A stretch of 64,000 bases of DNA, from the NCBI GenBank assembly GCA_903847205.1, contig CAINDA010000051.1:1-64000 (forward strand), written 5' to 3'. The translations under genes and the position numbers were made by a program. Of this stretch, positions 5,321 through 55,693 are shown in pieces. Source of the stretch: an uncultured Bacteroidota bacterium (GTDB taxonomy: Bacteria > Bacteroidota > Bacteroidia > 2-12-FULL-35-15). Positions within the stretch are counted from its first letter, which is position 1. Every line of letters begins with the position of its first letter. The notes under the pieces are model-generated. The model did no database searches. It was not told the origin of the DNA and saw only the letters and a program-made list of their open reading frames with translations.

Positions 5321-6223
5321 TTATTTAACGGTATTAAATTTACATTTTGTAAGAATTTTGTTTTTCTTATCACGTATTTCGCAGTAATAGATACCTTCTG
5401 CAAATAAACTGGTGTTTATATCCGTCTTATAATTATTAATTTTGTAGATTCCATACGGTCTTCCTAGTGCATCAATCACCTTCACATTATCAGCTTCTTC
5501 CAAAACTGTTTGAATAGTAACATTACCTTTGGCAGGATTTGGGAATACATTTACCTTGTCAGCATAAATATGCTTCTCCCCAATTCCAACATTTCCTGTA
5601 TATGCTAAATCATCAATAAACAGCATGCTTCCAACACGTACCGCATTTTTATTACTTGAAGCTAAGCCAATTTCGGCTGAATCGGGCAGCTCAGTTGAGC
5701 GGTAAATAAGGTTTATCTGGAATAAAGTATATTGCAATACCTGCGAAAATGTTAAAGATCCAGAAGCAACAGTATCAGAGGTTGTTCCATTCCATTTTTT
5801 TAAAACAACACCTACTGAAGCCCTGTCGATGCCAACTGGCAGATATTTAGCCCAGAATTCAAGCTTTTCAGGACGCCCGGTGTATGGATAACCATAGGTG
5901 ACAGCTACAGGGTTATAGTTAACTTTTCCTGTAAAAGCAACGCCGAATGAATCCGGAAAAATAGTGGAATCAGGATTGTTATTAAGAAAAACAGTCCGAA
6001 GTTTCAATGCGTAATTTCCTGAGTGTTTATCAATTCCTGTAGCTTTAAATGCTGATAAGGGATTGGGAGGCGAAAGGAGCGAAAAAGCATTCCCTGTCTG
6101 CCAATTATCTGGTTCCTCAATGCCAAATATAGTGCTCCAGTTTTCAAAACTGCCGTTGGGCTGGGCTTTGCAATGTGAAATTACGTGAGTCAGTAATATT
6201 GATATGAGTAAAAATTTTTTCAT
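5321..6223 (-). CDS. PCMD-like T9SS type A secreted protein, paralog 5
   Basis: 300 aa: signal peptide (MKKFLLISILLTHVISHCKAQ), PCMD-like domain (GSFENWSTIFGIEEPDNW, GRPEKLEFWAKYLPVG, KWNG, SMLFIDDLAYTG) and type A sorting domain (VFPNPAKGNVTIQT ... CKFNTVK). It is the first paralog in the direction of transcription. The 21-bp-period palindrome array lies 138-390 bp upstream of its start, so the array could control the whole paralog run. The 180-bp gap after it holds only low-complexity AT-rich DNA. Confidence 0.82.
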   Translation of the reverse strand: MKKFLLISILLTHVISHCKAQPNGSFENWSTIFGIEEPDNWQTGNAFSLLSPPNPLSAFKATGIDKHSGNYALKLRTVFLNNNPDSTIFPDSFGVAFTGKVNYNPVAVTYGYPYTGRPEKLEFWAKYLPVGIDRASVGVVLKKWNGTTSDTVASGSLTFSQVLQYTLFQINLIYRSTELPDSAEIGLASSNKNAVRVGSMLFIDDLAYTGNVGIGEKHIYADKVNVFPNPAKGNVTIQTVLEEADNVKVIDALGRPYGIYKINNYKTDINTSLFAEGIYYCEIRDKKNKILTKCKFNTVK

Positions 6224-6360: not shown

Positions 6361-6603
6361 AAACGGTTGTTTGATGAACCAAAACAATTGTTTTTTTTAA
6401 GTAAACAACTGTTTTATTTCATCAAACATTTGTTTGGTTTGGGTAAACAATTGTTTTATCAAATCAAACAATTGTTTTATTTTAATAAACAATTGTTTTG
6501 GTTCATCAAACAATTGTTTTCTTTCATCAAACGGGAGAATATTTTAGTTAAACGGGGAATAAGTTTTAAAAAACGGGTCAATTACTTTTTCCAAACAATA
6601 AAT
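6361..6603. repeat. 21-bp-phased palindrome array 1 (AAACAATTGTTT)
   Basis: Units start at 6361, 6382, 6403, 6424, 6445, 6466, 6487, 6508, 6529, 6550 and 6571, exactly 21 bp apart, with a weaker unit near 6593. The first eight carry the 12-bp palindrome AAACAATTGTTT or a one- or two-base variant; the last ones keep only AAACGGG or similar. The 9-bp spacers vary. Twenty-one bp is two turns of B-DNA, so all palindromes face the same side of the helix. A reading frame across the array (6367-6615) is simply KQLF repeated every seven codons and is taken as a by-product. The array sits between the Kelch lipoprotein stop and the start of PCMD paralog 5. Confidence 0.9.
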
Positions 6604-6663
6604 ACTTACCCCTGACACAAAAATATAATTTAAGCTCAACTCTGTAACAGTTCAAAATTTTAT

Positions 6664-7926
6664 TTATTGACCATACACCCAGAAATCATTAAAAACAACG
6701 GAATTAATTTTGTTTCCGGCACCGATATATCCGTTTTTCCCAATCGCAAATCCGAAAGAAAATTCCCGTCCTTCGCCTTCAAAATCTGATTTTTGCAGCC
6801 AACTGTCGGAGGCCGGATTGTATTCAAAAAAATCTTTATAATAGTTAGTGCCGTCGGTACCGGTTCCAAAATACCCTTTATCTCCAATTGAAAAGCCGGC
6901 AGCTGCATAACGGATTGGCCCCGGAAAATTTGCTTTCTGAGTCCATTTTCCAAGAGGGTGATGGTTGATATCAAATCCCAGGCTGCTGTCAGCAGGGTTA
7001 TATTCCCAAAAATCCGTATGGTATAAACTTCCGTCGGAGCCCCTAAAAAGGTATCCTTTATTACCAATCGAAAAGCTGCTTCCTCCGTTGCTTTTTACTG
7101 ATAAATTCGCTTTTTTTACCCAATGATCAGTTGCAGGGTCATATTCTAATAAATCTCTGCGTGTTTGAAAAAGTCCGTCGCCTCCTGATCCAACATATCC
7201 TTTATTTCCGATTGAAAAGCCGAAAGCAAATGCTCTGGCCGTATCACCGCAGTCTGCTTTCTGAGTCCATTTGTCTAAGGTGGGATCGAATTCCCAGAAA
7301 TCTTTAAGAAATCCTGTTGTAACATATCCAGTTCCAATATATCCCTTATTTCCGATTGAAAAACCAACAGCATCAAATCTTTTCGTACCTCCGAAATCGG
7401 CCATTTGTGTCCAGGTATTTGAAGCCGGATCATATTGCCAAAAATCTCTGTACATAGAAGAGGTTCCATCATGCCCTGTTCCCATATATCCTTTGCTGCC
7501 TATTGAAAAACCAACACCTTCCGTTCTTCCTCCCCCTTTAAAATCTTTTTCGCGGCACCAATGGTTTGAAATCCCTCCCTGGCTTATATCCAGACAGGCT
7601 GCTTCACTCACTTCTTTTTTATTATTGCTTCTAACACAAATCTGACCAGACTTGTTTCCGAATTTTATCACAATGGAAGTTGTTCCCTGACCAGAAATGA
7701 TTGATGCATCATCAGGAACAGTCCATAAATAATAATCAGATCCCTCAACAGGCGCAATTGAATAGGTAATGCCTGAATCAGCAGGGCATAAGTTTTTTTG
7801 GCCTGTGATAGCTCCTGGAACCGGGGGAGGAAGGTCTTTTTTGCAGGAGGCGGTGAAGAGAATAAAAAAGATGAAAAATAGCTTCCTGCCAGTCCAAGAT
7901 AAATAACCAGTTTGTTTGTGTTTCAT
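6664..7926 (-). CDS. Kelch-repeat lipoprotein with PKD-like domain
   Basis: 420 aa. The N-terminus has a hydrophobic stretch ending in FTASCKK, a lipobox with the acylated Cys near residue 28, so it should be anchored in the outer or inner membrane facing the periplasm or surface. Next is a PKD-like domain (GSDYYLWTVPDDASIISGQG, residues about 35-115). About six Kelch repeats of around 48 residues follow, each with GFSIG.KGY.G.G and DFWEYDP....W.QK, closing a predicted beta-propeller (about 120-420). It starts 11 bp after the stop of the TPR/beta-barrel gene, a clear operon arrangement, and downstream of the nSTAND gene. It probably binds a protein or glycan ligand; the partner is unknown. 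Confidence 0.85.
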   Translation of the reverse strand: MKHKQTGYLSWTGRKLFFIFFILFTASCKKDLPPPVPGAITGQKNLCPADSGITYSIAPVEGSDYYLWTVPDDASIISGQGTTSIVIKFGNKSGQICVRSNNKKEVSEAACLDISQGGISNHWCREKDFKGGGRTEGVGFSIGSKGYMGTGHDGTSSMYRDFWQYDPASNTWTQMADFGGTKRFDAVGFSIGNKGYIGTGYVTTGFLKDFWEFDPTLDKWTQKADCGDTARAFAFGFSIGNKGYVGSGGDGLFQTRRDLLEYDPATDHWVKKANLSVKSNGGSSFSIGNKGYLFRGSDGSLYHTDFWEYNPADSSLGFDINHHPLGKWTQKANFPGPIRYAAAGFSIGDKGYFGTGTDGTNYYKDFFEYNPASDSWLQKSDFEGEGREFSFGFAIGKNGYIGAGNKINSVVFNDFWVYGQ

Positions 7927-9077: not shown

Positions 9078-12000
9078 TTAAAAACCCTTACACGTTTTTT
9101 CATACGGAATATCCTCACCGACAATTAACTTCCATTCCTGCTCCGACATATTATTTTTTAACAACGCACAGATTTTGCCGGCCAGTATTTCACTTGATAT
9201 TTCCCACACCCTGATGCTCTTATCTGTGCACCCAGCAATAATTTTTTCCTTAGAAACAAATATAATACTTTTTACTTTGCTGTTATGATCCTTCAATTCA
9301 ACTGCACTCCCAATAGAATTATAATTTTCGAAGTAAGAATGAAAATTATAAAATTTAATTATTTTATCTGAAGCGGCTGAAGCAGCAACTGTATAATCCT
9401 CATTGAAGGTAATGAATTCAACGGCGGCGGCTTGTGCTTTAAATTCCCAATGTTTAATTGAATTGATGTCGGAATAATTCATATCAAATGAAATTATGGT
9501 GCCGTCGGAAAAACCGGCAAGCAGCATGTTTTTTGATTTGTTTAATGCCAGACATAAAGGCTTTGCCGAACCGTGCTTAAATATGATTTTTTCTGAAGCG
9601 TTTTTAATATCCCATACTGCAATTTTCCCATCTTCCTGAGCCGAAATTAATTCATCTCCATTACCGGAATAAATAAGTGATTTAATTGCGGCTGACGCTT
9701 TTAATATTTTTTTCTGAACAGGATTTTTCTCCTGAATGTTCCAGATAATTATCAGGCTGTCTTTGCCAGCTGTTGCTAAATGAATCCCATCAGGGCTGAA
9801 TACGGCAGCCCTTACCAAACCTTTGTGTCCGTTAAGCTCAATAAAATTTTGTGTTTTAGCGGTTTCATTTTTGATCACATTTTTAATATCCCATAAACAA
9901 ACAATAAAATTATCATGGGCTGTTGCCAGATAATTTCCGGAGGTATTAAAAAATAATGTATTTATGGGGCTTGTATATTTAATTTCAGAAATGGATTTTA
10001 CATTTCCAGTATTATAATCCACATCATATATTTTACCATCCAAATCTGCCGCTATCGCTTTGTTCTGCATCACAGCAAGCGTTCTTACTTCCATCTGTGG
10101 GCCGTCCAAATCAGTATGCCTGCTGCTGTCTAAAACAGAATAGGCATTTCTTAAACCTTCATAAATAACGGGATCCTCAGCACTTCCCCCGTTATTTTTA
10201 TTAAACAAAAATGCCTGAACGGCAAGCAGACCCAGCAGGTTTTTGTTTTTTTTATAAAGAGATGATTTCAATGCAAGATTCTGAGCAATGGAAATCAGTT
10301 TAAGTTTCCTGGATTTTAGTTCTGCATTTTCGGCCTTGCTTTTTTCAAGCTCAGCTTTAGTTTTTTCCTGCTCTGCATTATTTTTTTCTTTTTTAGCGGT
10401 TTCTGTCTGCTGCTGGGCATTTTGCTTTTCCTTTTCTGCGGTTTCTTTTGCCGATACCGCATCCCGCTTTGATACCTCCGCCTGCTTCTCTGCTGTGAGG
10501 GCGGACTTCTCGCTTTTTTCTGCCTTTTCTTTAAGAATCAGCGCGATATTTTTTGCATTCAATGCATATTGTTCGGAGCTGTGCGCAAGGTTTTCGGATT
10601 TCAAAGCTTCATCTGTTTTTTGATTTGCAATTGCCTGTTGATCCAATGCTTTATTACGTTCCAAAATCGCCCACGAAGTAAAACCGATTAATATAATCAG
10701 AATAAGAGTTGTAATTGCCCTAACAGCTCTTCGTTTTAATTTGATTGACGATTCGCTGATCTGCAGACAGGCATTTGCCGATAAAATAAATTTTTTTCCA
10801 TCATCGACTTTTTGTTCCGGCGATAAATTGGAGGTGTCGTATTTTGCCAGTAAATAAGGGTTGGGGTTAATAGTTTCGACCCATTTTTTGAAATAGTTTA
10901 ATGAGCCGATTGTGAGCAGATAGTCTTTTGAACGGTTTTTTTCCTCCCATCGTTCAACCTGTTTTTTGAAATCGTTGAGTACTAAAATATTTTCATGATC
11001 CTGTTTTGTCCATTGTGTAAGCTCTGTCCAATTCCGGATTAATGATTCATGTGTTATATCAAGTATGTCACTATCGCGCAAAAAAAGGGTTTTCTCATCC
11101 TTAGAAATAAATGGTTTAAGAAGGGTGTTCTCCGGTTCTCTGAAAAGATTTACCAATCCTTCAATTAGATTAGTGTCAATCTTTTTTCCGATGATCTGCT
11201 TTATCTCCAATACTGACGACCGGTTTCTAACAGCGCGGCTGTCATTTATTTTAGTAAGGCATGTGAATATTTTTTGTAAAATTTCATTCGCCTCTTTTCT
11301 TGAAATGTCGCGCCCGATGTGTTTTGTACAATAGTCAACTGATGTTTCAAAAAGCTCACGCGCATGGGCATTTAAAACATTTGCAAGGGATGCGCCCTGA
11401 AGATTTTTTTGTTTAAACTCCGGCTGATTTTTAAGCCAGCTGAAAAATAATTTCTTTTGATCATCCGGTAGTATCTCTCCGTCAACACCGCCTACCTTTG
11501 CATAATGAATAAGATTCATTTCGGATGAACCGTCATCCATGTGTGATTTCCAGATGCGGTTAAGAGCATGCTGTAAAATAGGAAGCTGATCCTGCCCATC
11601 GCCAAGCTCATTTATCAGTCGTTCAATTAAACTGTTGTTTATTTTGTTTCCTGATAGTTTTGCCGGTTCTAAAATGGCACGGTGGATTTCCTGGCGTTTA
11701 AGCCGAGGAACAAAAAACTGGCTGGATACAATATGCTCCGGAAGTCCTTTAAAGGCAGCACAATCTCCGACATAATCCGATCGCATAGTGCATACAATAT
11801 AAATCGGAAGATTTTCTTTTTCAGCAATTTTGGTGGTTTCAATAATCAGGTTGATAAGTGTGATTGCCTGAAGTGAAGGTTTGCCTTTGTTGAAGTTTTC
11901 GGAGTTTGTAAAGAGCTCTTCAAATTGATCTATTAAAATTAGAAGATTCGCGCTTTTGTTTTTTAAATTTTGTTTTTCATCACTTCCGGCATTAATAAAA

Positions 12001-12410
12001 TCAGCAGAATCGTTATCAAGATAAAATTTTGATTCTTTATAAATTTTTACAAGGGAGGAAAAACCGTAACTGAGCTCTTCTTCCAATTCATTTTCATCTT
12101 CTAATTTTAAATGATTTTTTAAGGATAGGGCTAAGTTTGACAGTGGAGCCCTTTCAGGCTTAAAGTCCACTACCAGCCAGTTATTAAAACGGGCTTTAAA
12201 AAAACCTGCACGTGAACGAGGTATTAAACCGGCATAAATAAGAGAAGATTTCCCGTCACCGGAAGCGCCGGTAACCATTACAAATTTTTTCTCCTGCAGC
12301 TGGAAAATTATTTTTTCGATATGCTCTTCCCGTCCTTTAAAAAAGATTGACTCTTCTTCATTAAACGGGCGAAGACCGGGATAGGGACATATTTTTTCTT
12401 CCTGCATCAA
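9078..12410 (-). CDS. nSTAND1-type NTPase with transmembrane helix, coiled coil and WD40 repeats
   Basis: 1110 aa. The N-terminus has the CPYPGLRPF.EEE...FKGRE signature of nSTAND1 NTPases, Walker A GASGDGKSS at 48-56 and Walker B LLILIDQFEELF near 155-167. An arginine-rich winged-helix region follows (RNWTELTQW). One hydrophobic helix (AITTLILIILIGFTSWAIL, about 565-590) is followed by a long Lys/Glu/Ala-rich coiled coil (about 590-700) and WD40 repeats (about 770-1080; LATAGKDSLIIIWNI, IIAGCTDKSIRVWEI). The single helix would put NTPase and WD40 on opposite sides of the inner membrane if both are folded as predicted. Such proteins act as ligand-triggered switches in defence and signalling. 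Here the partners look like envelope proteins. The ligand is unknown. Confidence 0.88.
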   Translation of the reverse strand: MMQEEKICPYPGLRPFNEEESIFFKGREEHIEKIIFQLQEKKFVMVTGASGDGKSSLIYAGLIPRSRAGFFKARFNNWLVVDFKPERAPLSNLALSLKNHLKLEDENELEEELSYGFSSLVKIYKESKFYLDNDSADFINAGSDEKQNLKNKSANLLILIDQFEELFTNSENFNKGKPSLQAITLINLIIETTKIAEKENLPIYIVCTMRSDYVGDCAAFKGLPEHIVSSQFFVPRLKRQEIHRAILEPAKLSGNKINNSLIERLINELGDGQDQLPILQHALNRIWKSHMDDGSSEMNLIHYAKVGGVDGEILPDDQKKLFFSWLKNQPEFKQKNLQGASLANVLNAHARELFETSVDYCTKHIGRDISRKEANEILQKIFTCLTKINDSRAVRNRSSVLEIKQIIGKKIDTNLIEGLVNLFREPENTLLKPFISKDEKTLFLRDSDILDITHESLIRNWTELTQWTKQDHENILVLNDFKKQVERWEEKNRSKDYLLTIGSLNYFKKWVETINPNPYLLAKYDTSNLSPEQKVDDGKKFILSANACLQISESSIKLKRRAVRAITTLILIILIGFTSWAILERNKALDQQAIANQKTDEALKSENLAHSSEQYALNAKNIALILKEKAEKSEKSALTAEKQAEVSKRDAVSAKETAEKEKQNAQQQTETAKKEKNNAEQEKTKAELEKSKAENAELKSRKLKLISIAQNLALKSSLYKKNKNLLGLLAVQAFLFNKNNGGSAEDPVIYEGLRNAYSVLDSSRHTDLDGPQMEVRTLAVMQNKAIAADLDGKIYDVDYNTGNVKSISEIKYTSPINTLFFNTSGNYLATAHDNFIVCLWDIKNVIKNETAKTQNFIELNGHKGLVRAAVFSPDGIHLATAGKDSLIIIWNIQEKNPVQKKILKASAAIKSLIYSGNGDELISAQEDGKIAVWDIKNASEKIIFKHGSAKPLCLALNKSKNMLLAGFSDGTIISFDMNYSDINSIKHWEFKAQAAAVEFITFNEDYTVAASAASDKIIKFYNFHSYFENYNSIGSAVELKDHNSKVKSIIFVSKEKIIAGCTDKSIRVWEISSEILAGKICALLKNNMSEQEWKLIVGEDIPYEKTCKGF

Positions 12411-49382: not shown

Positions 49383-49964
49383 ATGAAAAATATCGGTACA
49401 ATAACACAAAGTGTCGGCAAAAGCTTTAATAGTAACGGTTATAGGATAAATAAATCCGCATTTTTTACAGCAGTTTCTGTTTCCGAAACTGCTTTTTTCA
49501 GCAAAAACATCTTTTTTTTATCAACTATTGATGCCCTTAATTTCCGAAAGGCAAAATCAATAAATACCGCCTTACATATTTCCGGAAGGTTTAAAAGCAG
49601 CTTTTTTAAGAGTAATCTTAGTTTATCGGCAAAAACAATTGTTTCTGCTTCAGGAATAGTTATTCCTGACACAAAAACAATTATTCCCGTGACGGAAACA
49701 ATTGTTTCTGTTACAAAAACAATTATCCCCGAGGTAAAAACAATTATTCCCCTGTCGGAAACAATTATTCCTGACACAGAAACAGTTATTCCTGTAACAA
49801 AAACAATTGTTTCTGAGGTAAAAACAATTATTCCTGAAGCAGAAACAATTGTTTCTGACACAGAAACAGCTATTCCCATCACAAAAACAAGTATGCCTGC
49901 TTTAAAAACCATTCAGCCATTGCTAAAAAATTGTATTACTGAAAAAAAATTAACAATCAATTAA
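49383..49964 (+). CDS. Open frame across palindrome array 2 (doubtful gene)
   Basis: A 193-codon frame. The first 80 codons encode Ser/Phe/Lys-rich sequence without recognisable signal or domain; the remainder is fourteen seven-residue repeats of the KTIIPEV or ETIVSDT kind, created by the 21-bp DNA repeat. The opposite strand is also open through the array. A -7 match at 49372-49379 predicts transcription from about 49386, after the ATG. I think translation is unlikely, but a secreted heptad-repeat protein cannot be ruled out. Confidence 0.25.
   Translation: MKNIGTITQSVGKSFNSNGYRINKSAFFTAVSVSETAFFSKNIFFLSTIDALNFRKAKSINTALHISGRFKSSFFKSNLSLSAKTIVSASGIVIPDTKTIIPVTETIVSVTKTIIPEVKTIIPLSETIIPDTETVIPVTKTIVSEVKTIIPEAETIVSDTETAIPITKTSMPALKTIQPLLKNCITEKKLTIN
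49632..49925. repeat. 21-bp-phased palindrome array 2 (AAACAATTGTTT family)
   Basis: Fourteen 21-bp units. Palindrome cores start at 49633, then every 21 bp (49675, 49696, 49717, 49738, 49759, 49780, 49801, 49822, 49843, 49864 and so on; the unit at 49654 is degenerate). The consensus is AAACAATTRTTYC; exact AAACAATTGTTT occurs at 49633, 49696, 49801 and 49843. Spacers often read CTGACACA, so GTTTCTG and CAGAAAC of neighbouring units can also pair. The core and period equal those of the array at 6.4 kb. The array lies just before the gene at 49991. Confidence 0.9.
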
Positions 49965-53303: not shown

Positions 53304-53540
53304 ATCATTAATTTATGCCTGATTTTAAATAGTAACATTCTTCTTCTGCATTTTCGGGTTTAAATACCTCCATAATCCCGCCTTCCAGCCTTTAAAGCAG
53401 TTTTTATTCTCCCATATATACCCCTGATTATCACCTGTTATAAAATAAAAAAATAATATTTTTCATTCCTACCCAACCTTTTACTAAATACCCCCGTGTT
53501 TGTAAGTAGAGAGAAACATTAACCTAAAAACTCAAAAGCC

Positions 53541-53663
53541 ATGAACACTAAAAAAGAAATCAGCCGAATAATCACTTACAAAGTAAGTATCGGCACCGTA
53601 TCTACTTTATTATCATTAGCAATAATAGCTGTAGTTTATTTCAGCGTACTGCATGTATTGTAA
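53541..53663 (+). CDS. Small single-pass membrane protein, copy 1 of 4
   Basis: 40 aa. A basic N-terminus (MNTKKEISRI) and a hydrophobic helix of about 22 residues (TLLSLAIIAVVYFSVLHVL). The two upstream direct repeats (ACCCAACCTTTTACT and GAGAGAAACATTAACCT) are shared with copy 2. The start ATG follows CAAAAGCC. Missed by usual length cut-offs. The near-identical copies with codon-level conservation show that it is a real gene. Predicted topology: N-terminus inside, single inner-membrane span. Confidence 0.75.
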   Translation: MNTKKEISRIITYKVSIGTVSTLLSLAIIAVVYFSVLHVL

Positions 53664-53769
53664 ATCGGTTTTTTTAAAAAAACAATATTTTTCGTTTCAA
53701 CCCAACCTTTTACTTAATACCATCGTGTTTGTTAATAGAGAGAAACATTAACCTGAAAACCTTAAAGCC

Positions 53770-53892
53770 ATGAACACTAAAAAAGAAATCAGCCAGACAA
53801 TCACTTACAAAGTAAGTATCGGCACCGTATCAACTTTATTATCATTAGCAATAATAGCTGTTGTTTATTTCAGCGTACTGCATGTATTGTAA
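53770..53892 (+). CDS. Small single-pass membrane protein, copy 2 of 4
   Basis: 40 aa, differing from copy 1 only at residues 9-10 (SQT for SRI). The DNA unit, including about 75 bp of upstream sequence, repeats copy 1 at a 229-bp distance. The amino-acid sequence is identical to copy 3, while several codons differ at silent positions (for example GTT for GTA), which means selection on the protein. Confidence 0.75.
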   Translation: MNTKKEISQTITYKVSIGTVSTLLSLAIIAVVYFSVLHVL

Positions 53893-53943
53893 ATTGGTTT
53901 AATTGTAAAACAAATTTTTATAAAACCTAAAAACTCAAAAGCC

Positions 53944-54066
53944 ATGAACACTAAAAAAGAAATCAGCCAGACAATCACTTACAAAGTAAGTATCGGCACC
54001 GTATCCACTTTATTATCATTAGCAATAATAGCTGTAGTTTATTTCAGCGTATTGCATGTATTGTAA
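53944..54066 (+). CDS. Small single-pass membrane protein, copy 3 of 4
   Basis: 40 aa, protein identical to copy 2. The start is 174 bp after the previous start and only the short AACCTAAAAACTCAAAAGCC leader is kept, so copies 2 and 3 are probably in one message. Confidence 0.75.
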   Translation: MNTKKEISQTITYKVSIGTVSTLLSLAIIAVVYFSVLHVL

Positions 54067-54108
54067 ATCGGTTTAATTGTAAAACATAATCTTTAAAACC
54101 TTACAACC

Positions 54109-55431: not shown

Positions 55432-55693
55432 ACTTGGAGACTTCTGAAAATTAAAACACCTGCTTTATCATTATTTCTGACTAAAAAAGTGTTGTTGTTA
55501 AGTGTGTAATCTTTATGCGTGATATTGATTATTCCACGGATGGATAAATAATAACCCCTTTGTTTCATTAATCGATTGAATTAAATAGAAAGTAAAAAAC
55601 ATAATATTATTATACTTCTGGAATGTTTTTTTATAAAAAATCTTAGGGACCAATGTTAATGAGTAATTAAAATATAATCTAATAAAATAAAAA

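Follow-up and report, generated by a model that had tools for sequence, protein, structure and literature searches.

The DNA analyzed here, a stretch of 64,000 nucleotides from an uncultured Bacteroidota bacterium (genome G000; the whole stretch is called the window), contains a short tandem array between two genes and raises the question of what keeps its units at a step of exactly 21 bp. Array 1 (6361–6591, plus strand) is composed of eleven exact 21-bp units, each AAAC followed by 17 bp. The AAAC recurs at 6361, 6382, and onward to 6571 in exact register, as a sequence-only reading of this DNA had reported, and the AAAC that follows, at 6593, is off the register by one base. Runs of three AAAC-N17 units give 25 matches in the window against a mean of 0.06 in dinucleotide shuffles (none of 100 reached 25), and AAACAATTGTTT occurs nine times where 0.05 are expected. 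The same reading placed a palindrome in all eleven units, which was borne out for eight of them (6361–6519), each with a 12-bp core and a 9-bp variable spacer. Five of the 11 carry exact AAACAATTGTTT (6382, 6445, 6466, 6487, and 6508) and three carry it altered at one or two places (6361, 6403, and 6424), with GGTT, AACT, and ATTT as core centre variants. The palindrome is absent from the three AAACGGG units (6529–6591, plus strand), which remain in register. These had been taken for decay; AAACGGG is also present in related arrays elsewhere in G000 (L142 on C37 and L054 on C13) and is therefore probably a variant unit. At the distal end (6593–6620, plus strand), AAACAAT stands one base out of register and is followed by TTACCCCTGACACAAA, which by eye resembles the units of a second array described below plus a flank common to two other arrays. 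An 82-aa TTG-start open reading frame (ORF) called through array 1 (6367–6615, plus strand) is probably spurious.

Array 1 sits within a 440-bp gap between two minus-strand genes. The gene downstream (5321–6223) codes for a secreted protein that carries a Por_Secre_tail (T9SS) and a PCMD domain, and the gene upstream (6664–7926) for a PKD-like and kelch protein, whose stop is 44 bp away if the array is extended to 6620. Its described position upstream of five T9SS paralogs holds in that it is 5' of five minus-strand paralogs, 138 bp from the first; Por_Secre_tail was found in the two paralogs scanned, of the five. A special tie to secreted-protein genes was not supported: among ten neighbors of other arrays, Pfam matched five (MMPL, AbiJ-type, TPR, YebC, and fn3). 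In three relatives (G002, G013, and G020), no array was found at the same gene pair, and the spacer between the two matches is 68–98 bp; the window's gene pair was visible in three of the six kelch loci read. Elsewhere in the window are an nSTAND1 NTPase with C-terminal WD40 repeats (9078–12410) and tandem repeats of 229 and 174 bp (53446–54108).

The array is not unique, either in the window or in the genome. Array 2 (49618–49930, plus strand), absent from the sequence-only reading, shares its core with array 1 and has a 21-bp step, four exact AAACAATTGTTT cores sharing a single 21-bp register, and units of AAACAATTATTCC type. A putative ORF of 193 aa with TIIP/TIVS heptads runs through it (49383–49964, plus strand) and might encode a real protein. 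A search of the whole genome for four AAAC in 21-bp steps gave 100 + 47 matches at many loci with differing units (backward control, 5 + 21). Tandem Repeats Finder (TRF) arrays of at least 70 bp in 688 kb of G000, window included, have a period of 21 or 42 in 16 of 43 cases. The same periods account for 8/14 and 7/10 TRF arrays in the array-rich sisters G027 and G015 and for 0/15 in 442 kb of three array-poor genomes (G002, 0/10; G010, 0/2; G019, 0/3). From the array density in the sampled stretches of G000, a nominally unbiased set that includes the window, stretches of C35, C44, and C45 met earlier in the pattern search, and one (L052) placed on a known array, we infer that this genome has intergenic 21-bp arrays numbering of the order of one hundred, most with their own unit.

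The step is sharp. Segments with a lag-21 signal numbered 23, 12, and 13 in G000, G027, and G015, compared with 1, 2, and 0 at lag 20 and 3, 0, and 0 at lag 22, while other lags in G000 gave 14 (lag 18), 13 (lag 27), and 15 (lag 36); the first 80 kb of array-poor stretches contained two lag-21 segments. Long ORFs enclose 1 of 24 arrays in G000 and 5 of 34 in a clade of seven other array-rich species. Arrays occupy 18 gaps between called genes in G000 and 20 in the clade, those outside these gaps not being placed between two called genes. By raw counts, 14 of the 38 gaps with an array and 65 of 385 without one are divergent, with genes called by longest-ORF heuristics and short ORFs lying mostly in an array set aside. 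Most G000 arrays are private in sequence. Ten of 276 pairs of arrays have units identical at 15 or more of 21 positions (none in shuffles), eight of them between different loci. Some arrays share flanks (29 bp of L044 and L053; the tail of L147 and L150), but only a few flank pairs match among 26 G000 arrays, and a shared leader and tail was rejected as a general feature. The suggestion that array 1 is an initiator or partition site was set aside because arrays of many sequences occupy many loci; for an iteron-type replication initiator site, its neighbors are also secreted and kelch proteins. A CRISPR array was rejected on comparison of repeat structure, the units here having just a 12-bp core and 9-bp spacer rather than long identical repeats.

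Array-richness is unevenly distributed in the genus. Eight of 36 genomes have 60–196 AAAC-pattern matches, both strands together, and the others 0–7; this division rests, with three poor genomes sampled by TRF, on one pattern that in addition picks up 7-bp repeats (in G036) and has a backward control that is high in the array-rich clade as well. A Rho tree covered the 30 genomes whose loci were retrieved, the six left out being array-poor. In it, seven rich genomes form one clade and G000 stands alone amid poor genomes. Since G000 nests among array-poor genomes on well-supported branches, array-richness has, on this tree, changed at least twice. Absence from close relatives, which the sequence-only reading had named as a refuting observation, applies to this locus in three relatives but not to the array class, which other species of the genus have. 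Between the sisters G015 and G027, whose shared blocks are about 80% identical in DNA and whose stretches are comparable in part, one locus has 21-bp periodicity in both genomes with similar flanks and diverged units, and no lag-21 signal was detected at three G015 places beside blocks syntenic with G027. Outside the genus, the core, step, and varied spacers of array 1 recur in a Chitinophagaceae genome (G060, sampled in 15 of 16 contigs listed). Its Rho shares 70% identity across 421 aa, compared with 78%–89% for full-length Rho matches within the genus. In a sample of 395 genomes from the phylum, only G000 and, once, G314 have the double palindrome with a 21-bp spacing, and no exact double AAACAATTGTTT at array spacing was found in viral contigs. 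As a separate observation, matches to the kelch protein number at least 50–65 in six of eight array-rich genomes and 0–28 in array-poor genomes, a trend broken by G000 (16) and G012 (22).

Array 1 fits a known kind of repeat. The parts of Subirana and Messeguer (2021, PMC8161180) considered here describe bacterial tandem repeats of constant size (20–21 or 52 nt) and variable sequence that are generally non-coding and without known function; the authors note that the size equals two helix turns and propose a polymerising DNA protein or small RNAs. The arrays here share a constant 20–21-nt unit in at least four tandem copies (eleven of 21 bp in array 1), many unrelated sequences with one unit size per genome (the 16 of 43 TRF arrays, with units mostly differing), a mostly non-coding location without codon phase (putative small ORFs run through some arrays), and a patchy presence, with eight of 36 genomes rich and no such TRF array in three poor ones. 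The published repeats are from Bacillus, whereas these are from Bacteroidota and sharply 21 bp. Those parts of the paper also report a short motif common to the arrays of some species, while none is common to most arrays here, where ACAA, AACA, and ATGA are in mild excess. In BrickBuilt, the minisatellite-MITE of Porphyromonas gingivalis, as described in the portion of PMC4596501 drawn on here, a 23-nt unit of one sequence is accompanied by a leader, a tail, and terminal inverted repeats. It is likewise an intergenic tandem array at several loci of a Bacteroidota genome with variable copy number, but the arrays here have 21-bp units, many sequences, and no general terminal repeats.

Patterns of variation within arrays were used to locate the constraint. 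In units 1–8 of array 1, mean pairwise identity is 0.92 in palindrome columns and 0.44 in the 9-bp spacers (0 of 5,000 permutations as high), and across all 11 units it is 0.72 and 0.43 (p 0.004), with the four AAAC columns fixed by the unit definition. The palindrome and spacers therefore differ in rate, and the earlier proposal that a kept palindrome among varying spacers points to a DNA- or RNA-level function is supported, as constraint on the DNA itself, both by this split and by the scarcity of indels in the 21-bp step. The core is also conserved and the spacers not in two G060 arrays; the split is weaker in the C13 array of G000 (0.96 versus 0.81, p 0.06). Conserved columns lie in clusters in 43 divergent arrays (autocorrelation z 7.7 at lag 1 and 3.7 at lag 2), which is a core-and-spacer arrangement. 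Against their own consensus, 69 arrays (four of 73 were too short for this count) have 42 indel bases and 2,653 mismatches, a ratio of 0.016, and array 1 has 0 and 41. Ordinary non-coding DNA has 80 gap openings to 414 mismatches (0.19; G010/G019) and 39 to 165 (0.24; G027/G015) in small baselines of 791 and 2,743 aligned bases. Indels per mismatch are thus about 12–15 times rarer in array units, the array figure being indel bases against an array's own consensus and the baseline gap openings between genomes. A single indel should disturb the lag-21 signal over roughly one unit, and the detection bias against indel-bearing arrays should therefore be small, although arrays of mixed 20- and 21-bp units, such as L046, may be missed. 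In G027, one degenerate array stays in a constant 21-bp register through nine units that have 65 mismatches in 189 bp, as laid out ungapped on a fixed grid.

Symmetry is enriched but not universal, and no single sequence anchors the class. Dyad symmetry was 1.82 in 73 arrays, compared with 1.07 and 1.17 under false pairing rules, and 1.68 versus about 1.0 in 24 G000 arrays, yet only 7 of 31 units tested are significantly palindromic. The 73-array tests excluded arrays shorter than 105 bp and those in which a shorter inner period was strong, the G005, G014, and G060 stretches were picked through pattern matches, and some of seven extra G014 stretches were picked for their palindromic look. No motif common to most arrays was found. 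Of 27 arrays picked without the AAAC pattern, four conserve AAAC (2.2 in shuffles), and six each conserve the commonest motifs, ATGA, AACA, and ACAA (2.0–2.3); in a wider set, AAAC is conserved in 7 and ACAA in 8 of 31 arrays (2.7). AAAC was accordingly rejected as a genome-wide anchor, its prominence being largely an effect of the search pattern and at chance in arrays picked otherwise. Curved DNA was also rejected, with no curvature signal (3/48).

We tentatively favor, with somewhat less than even confidence, the explanation that array 1 is a helix-phased platform of multiple protein sites. A site of about 12 bp recurs on one helix face exactly two turns apart, and a dimeric or filament-forming DNA-binding protein would occupy neighboring sites cooperatively and could thereby shape the nucleoid or nearby transcription. 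Array 1 would be one of many intergenic arrays in G000 with a common step and differing sequence. Two-turn spacing, in which the core is conserved on one face while the spacer varies freely, is the pattern expected of cooperative protein sites, and the recurrence in G060 of core, step, and varied spacers suits a real binding site. Also in its favor are the clustered conserved columns, the scarcity of indels, the sharp period, the enriched dyad symmetry, the periodicity common to G015 and G027 at one locus, and the raw count of divergent gaps. Adverse to a platform are the differences in core between arrays, the small share of significantly palindromic units, the missing curvature signal, the rarity of the double palindrome in the phylum, and the lack of arrays in most species of the genus; no candidate binder was found.

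The main rival, which we regard as quite possible though less probable than the platform, is an array-generating mutational or mobile process in which an enzyme or repair path copies intergenic DNA in 21-bp (two-turn) quanta that persist where harmless, so that the period is the generator's and has no function. It explains patchiness and sequence freedom well. The distribution, which is almost all-or-nothing and changed at least twice, the empty sites in three relatives and the three G015 places without periodicity, the array families at several loci with some shared flanks, and the many sequences that can serve as a unit all agree with it. The lack of indels in units that diverge by 20%–35% from consensus, the register held by the degenerate G027 array, and the core–spacer split, which is not expected from copying alone, speak against a pure by-product. 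Neither of two enzyme types searched for accompanies the arrays specifically. Reverse transcriptases were rejected as a required partner, being found in only four of eight array-rich genomes, and Y1 transposases (PF01797), the RAYT type known with REP elements, are present in 8/8 rich and 21/28 poor genomes and are therefore not specific.

Three further explanations fare worse. A BrickBuilt-like MITE, with the array as the inner minisatellite of a non-autonomous transposon bearing a leader, tail, and terminal inverted repeats, would account for the TTAACC inverted ends that flank one G015 array (55442–55678 of joined C9 stretches), for the few flanks shared between arrays, and for inverted repeats between an array's own flanks at a score of at least 10 in 8 of 68 cases (3.3 expected from crossed flanks). 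That same count leaves most arrays without inverted ends, the excess shrinks to 11 versus 8.1 at a score of at least 9, array 1 is outside the ten best, and unit sequences differ between arrays, making a MITE improbable. We think it similarly doubtful that the arrays act as RNA, as transcribed 21-nt hairpins serving as a sponge or regulator. Some arrays have inverted repeats within units, and in two from G060 (L163 and L167) within-unit pairing exceeds between-unit pairing by +1.0 and +0.5. Inspection by eye had hinted at compensatory changes in the hairpins of several arrays, but two tests gave this no overall support, and 73 arrays showed no covariation overall (within-unit minus between-unit value, −0.058; positive in 31 and negative in 35). 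Rfam matches reach 27–29 bits, far below gathering scores of 60–100; array 1 has no terminator-like site, and promoters of the sigma-70-like type, the one type covered, show no excess over shuffles there. The remaining explanation, heptad-repeat peptides encoded by the arrays (21 bp = 7 codons), is very improbable. In its favor, 21 is divisible by three, 7 of the first 13 arrays, including both window arrays, are crossed by ORFs of 82–250 aa, and 6 of 58 arrays from G000 and the seven-species clade are inside long ORFs. A stop-free seven-codon unit would often be expected in six frames, however, and an open frame is lacking in 12 of 73 arrays, while codon-phase variation is at chance (4/64 at p < 0.05).

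If a protein platform is the right explanation, the nature of its protein is constrained by the differences between arrays. No motif is common to most arrays, so one sequence-specific protein can hardly serve all of them, and the differing cores would call for many proteins or for a single one that recognizes shape and phase. The 12-bp palindrome itself may be able to act as an operator. In one other genus, ten genomes each have a single AAACANNTGTTT-N5-AAACANNTGTTT, and in six loci read (1501–1529 in each of L221, L222, L223, L225, L228, and L229) it immediately precedes a TetR-type gene, with a TolC-like efflux gene coming next, which suggests a candidate operator; TetR_N was confirmed in the four TetR-type proteins scanned. 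The same 12-bp palindrome is in tandem there as in array 1, but as two sites 17 bp apart, once per genome, rather than eleven units with a 21-bp step. A TetR regulator was rejected as the AAACANNTGTTT binder in G000, with no match at E 1e-8.

Nor did proteins of the HU/IHF type yield a partner. HU copy numbers overlap (2–5 in rich and 1–5 in poor genomes). Bit scores for a third HU paralog split rich from poor genomes, but an alignment of 20 genomes showed the signal to be carried by the seven-species clade, and the paralog was rejected. Over 90 columns, the clade's six full-length copies (L182–L184 and L186–L188) have 17–31 differences from the array-poor consensus and the copies of twelve array-poor genomes (L190–L201) 2–14, with deep array-poor lineages at 2–4. 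The G000 copy (L185) has 12, within the 8–14 of its array-poor neighbors. We consider it unlikely, though conceivable, that at least two lineages independently acquired a builder or maintainer of two-turn, free-sequence intergenic arrays forming a sequence-independent helix-phased chromosome scaffold, accompanied in the older rich clade by rapid change of an otherwise conserved HU/IHF-type protein.

Repeats of fixed size and free sequence are a known puzzle without an assigned function. What is new here for the constant-size class is evidence on constraint and gain; beyond the parts of PMC8161180 considered here, unit length was set against a non-coding indel baseline, and changes were placed on a tree. 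The 12–15-fold rarity of indels per mismatch argues for constraint on unit length itself, and the helix-phase idea is therefore directly testable. The genus offers a natural experiment, with array-rich and array-poor species, at least two changes between these states, and one locus with and without an array.
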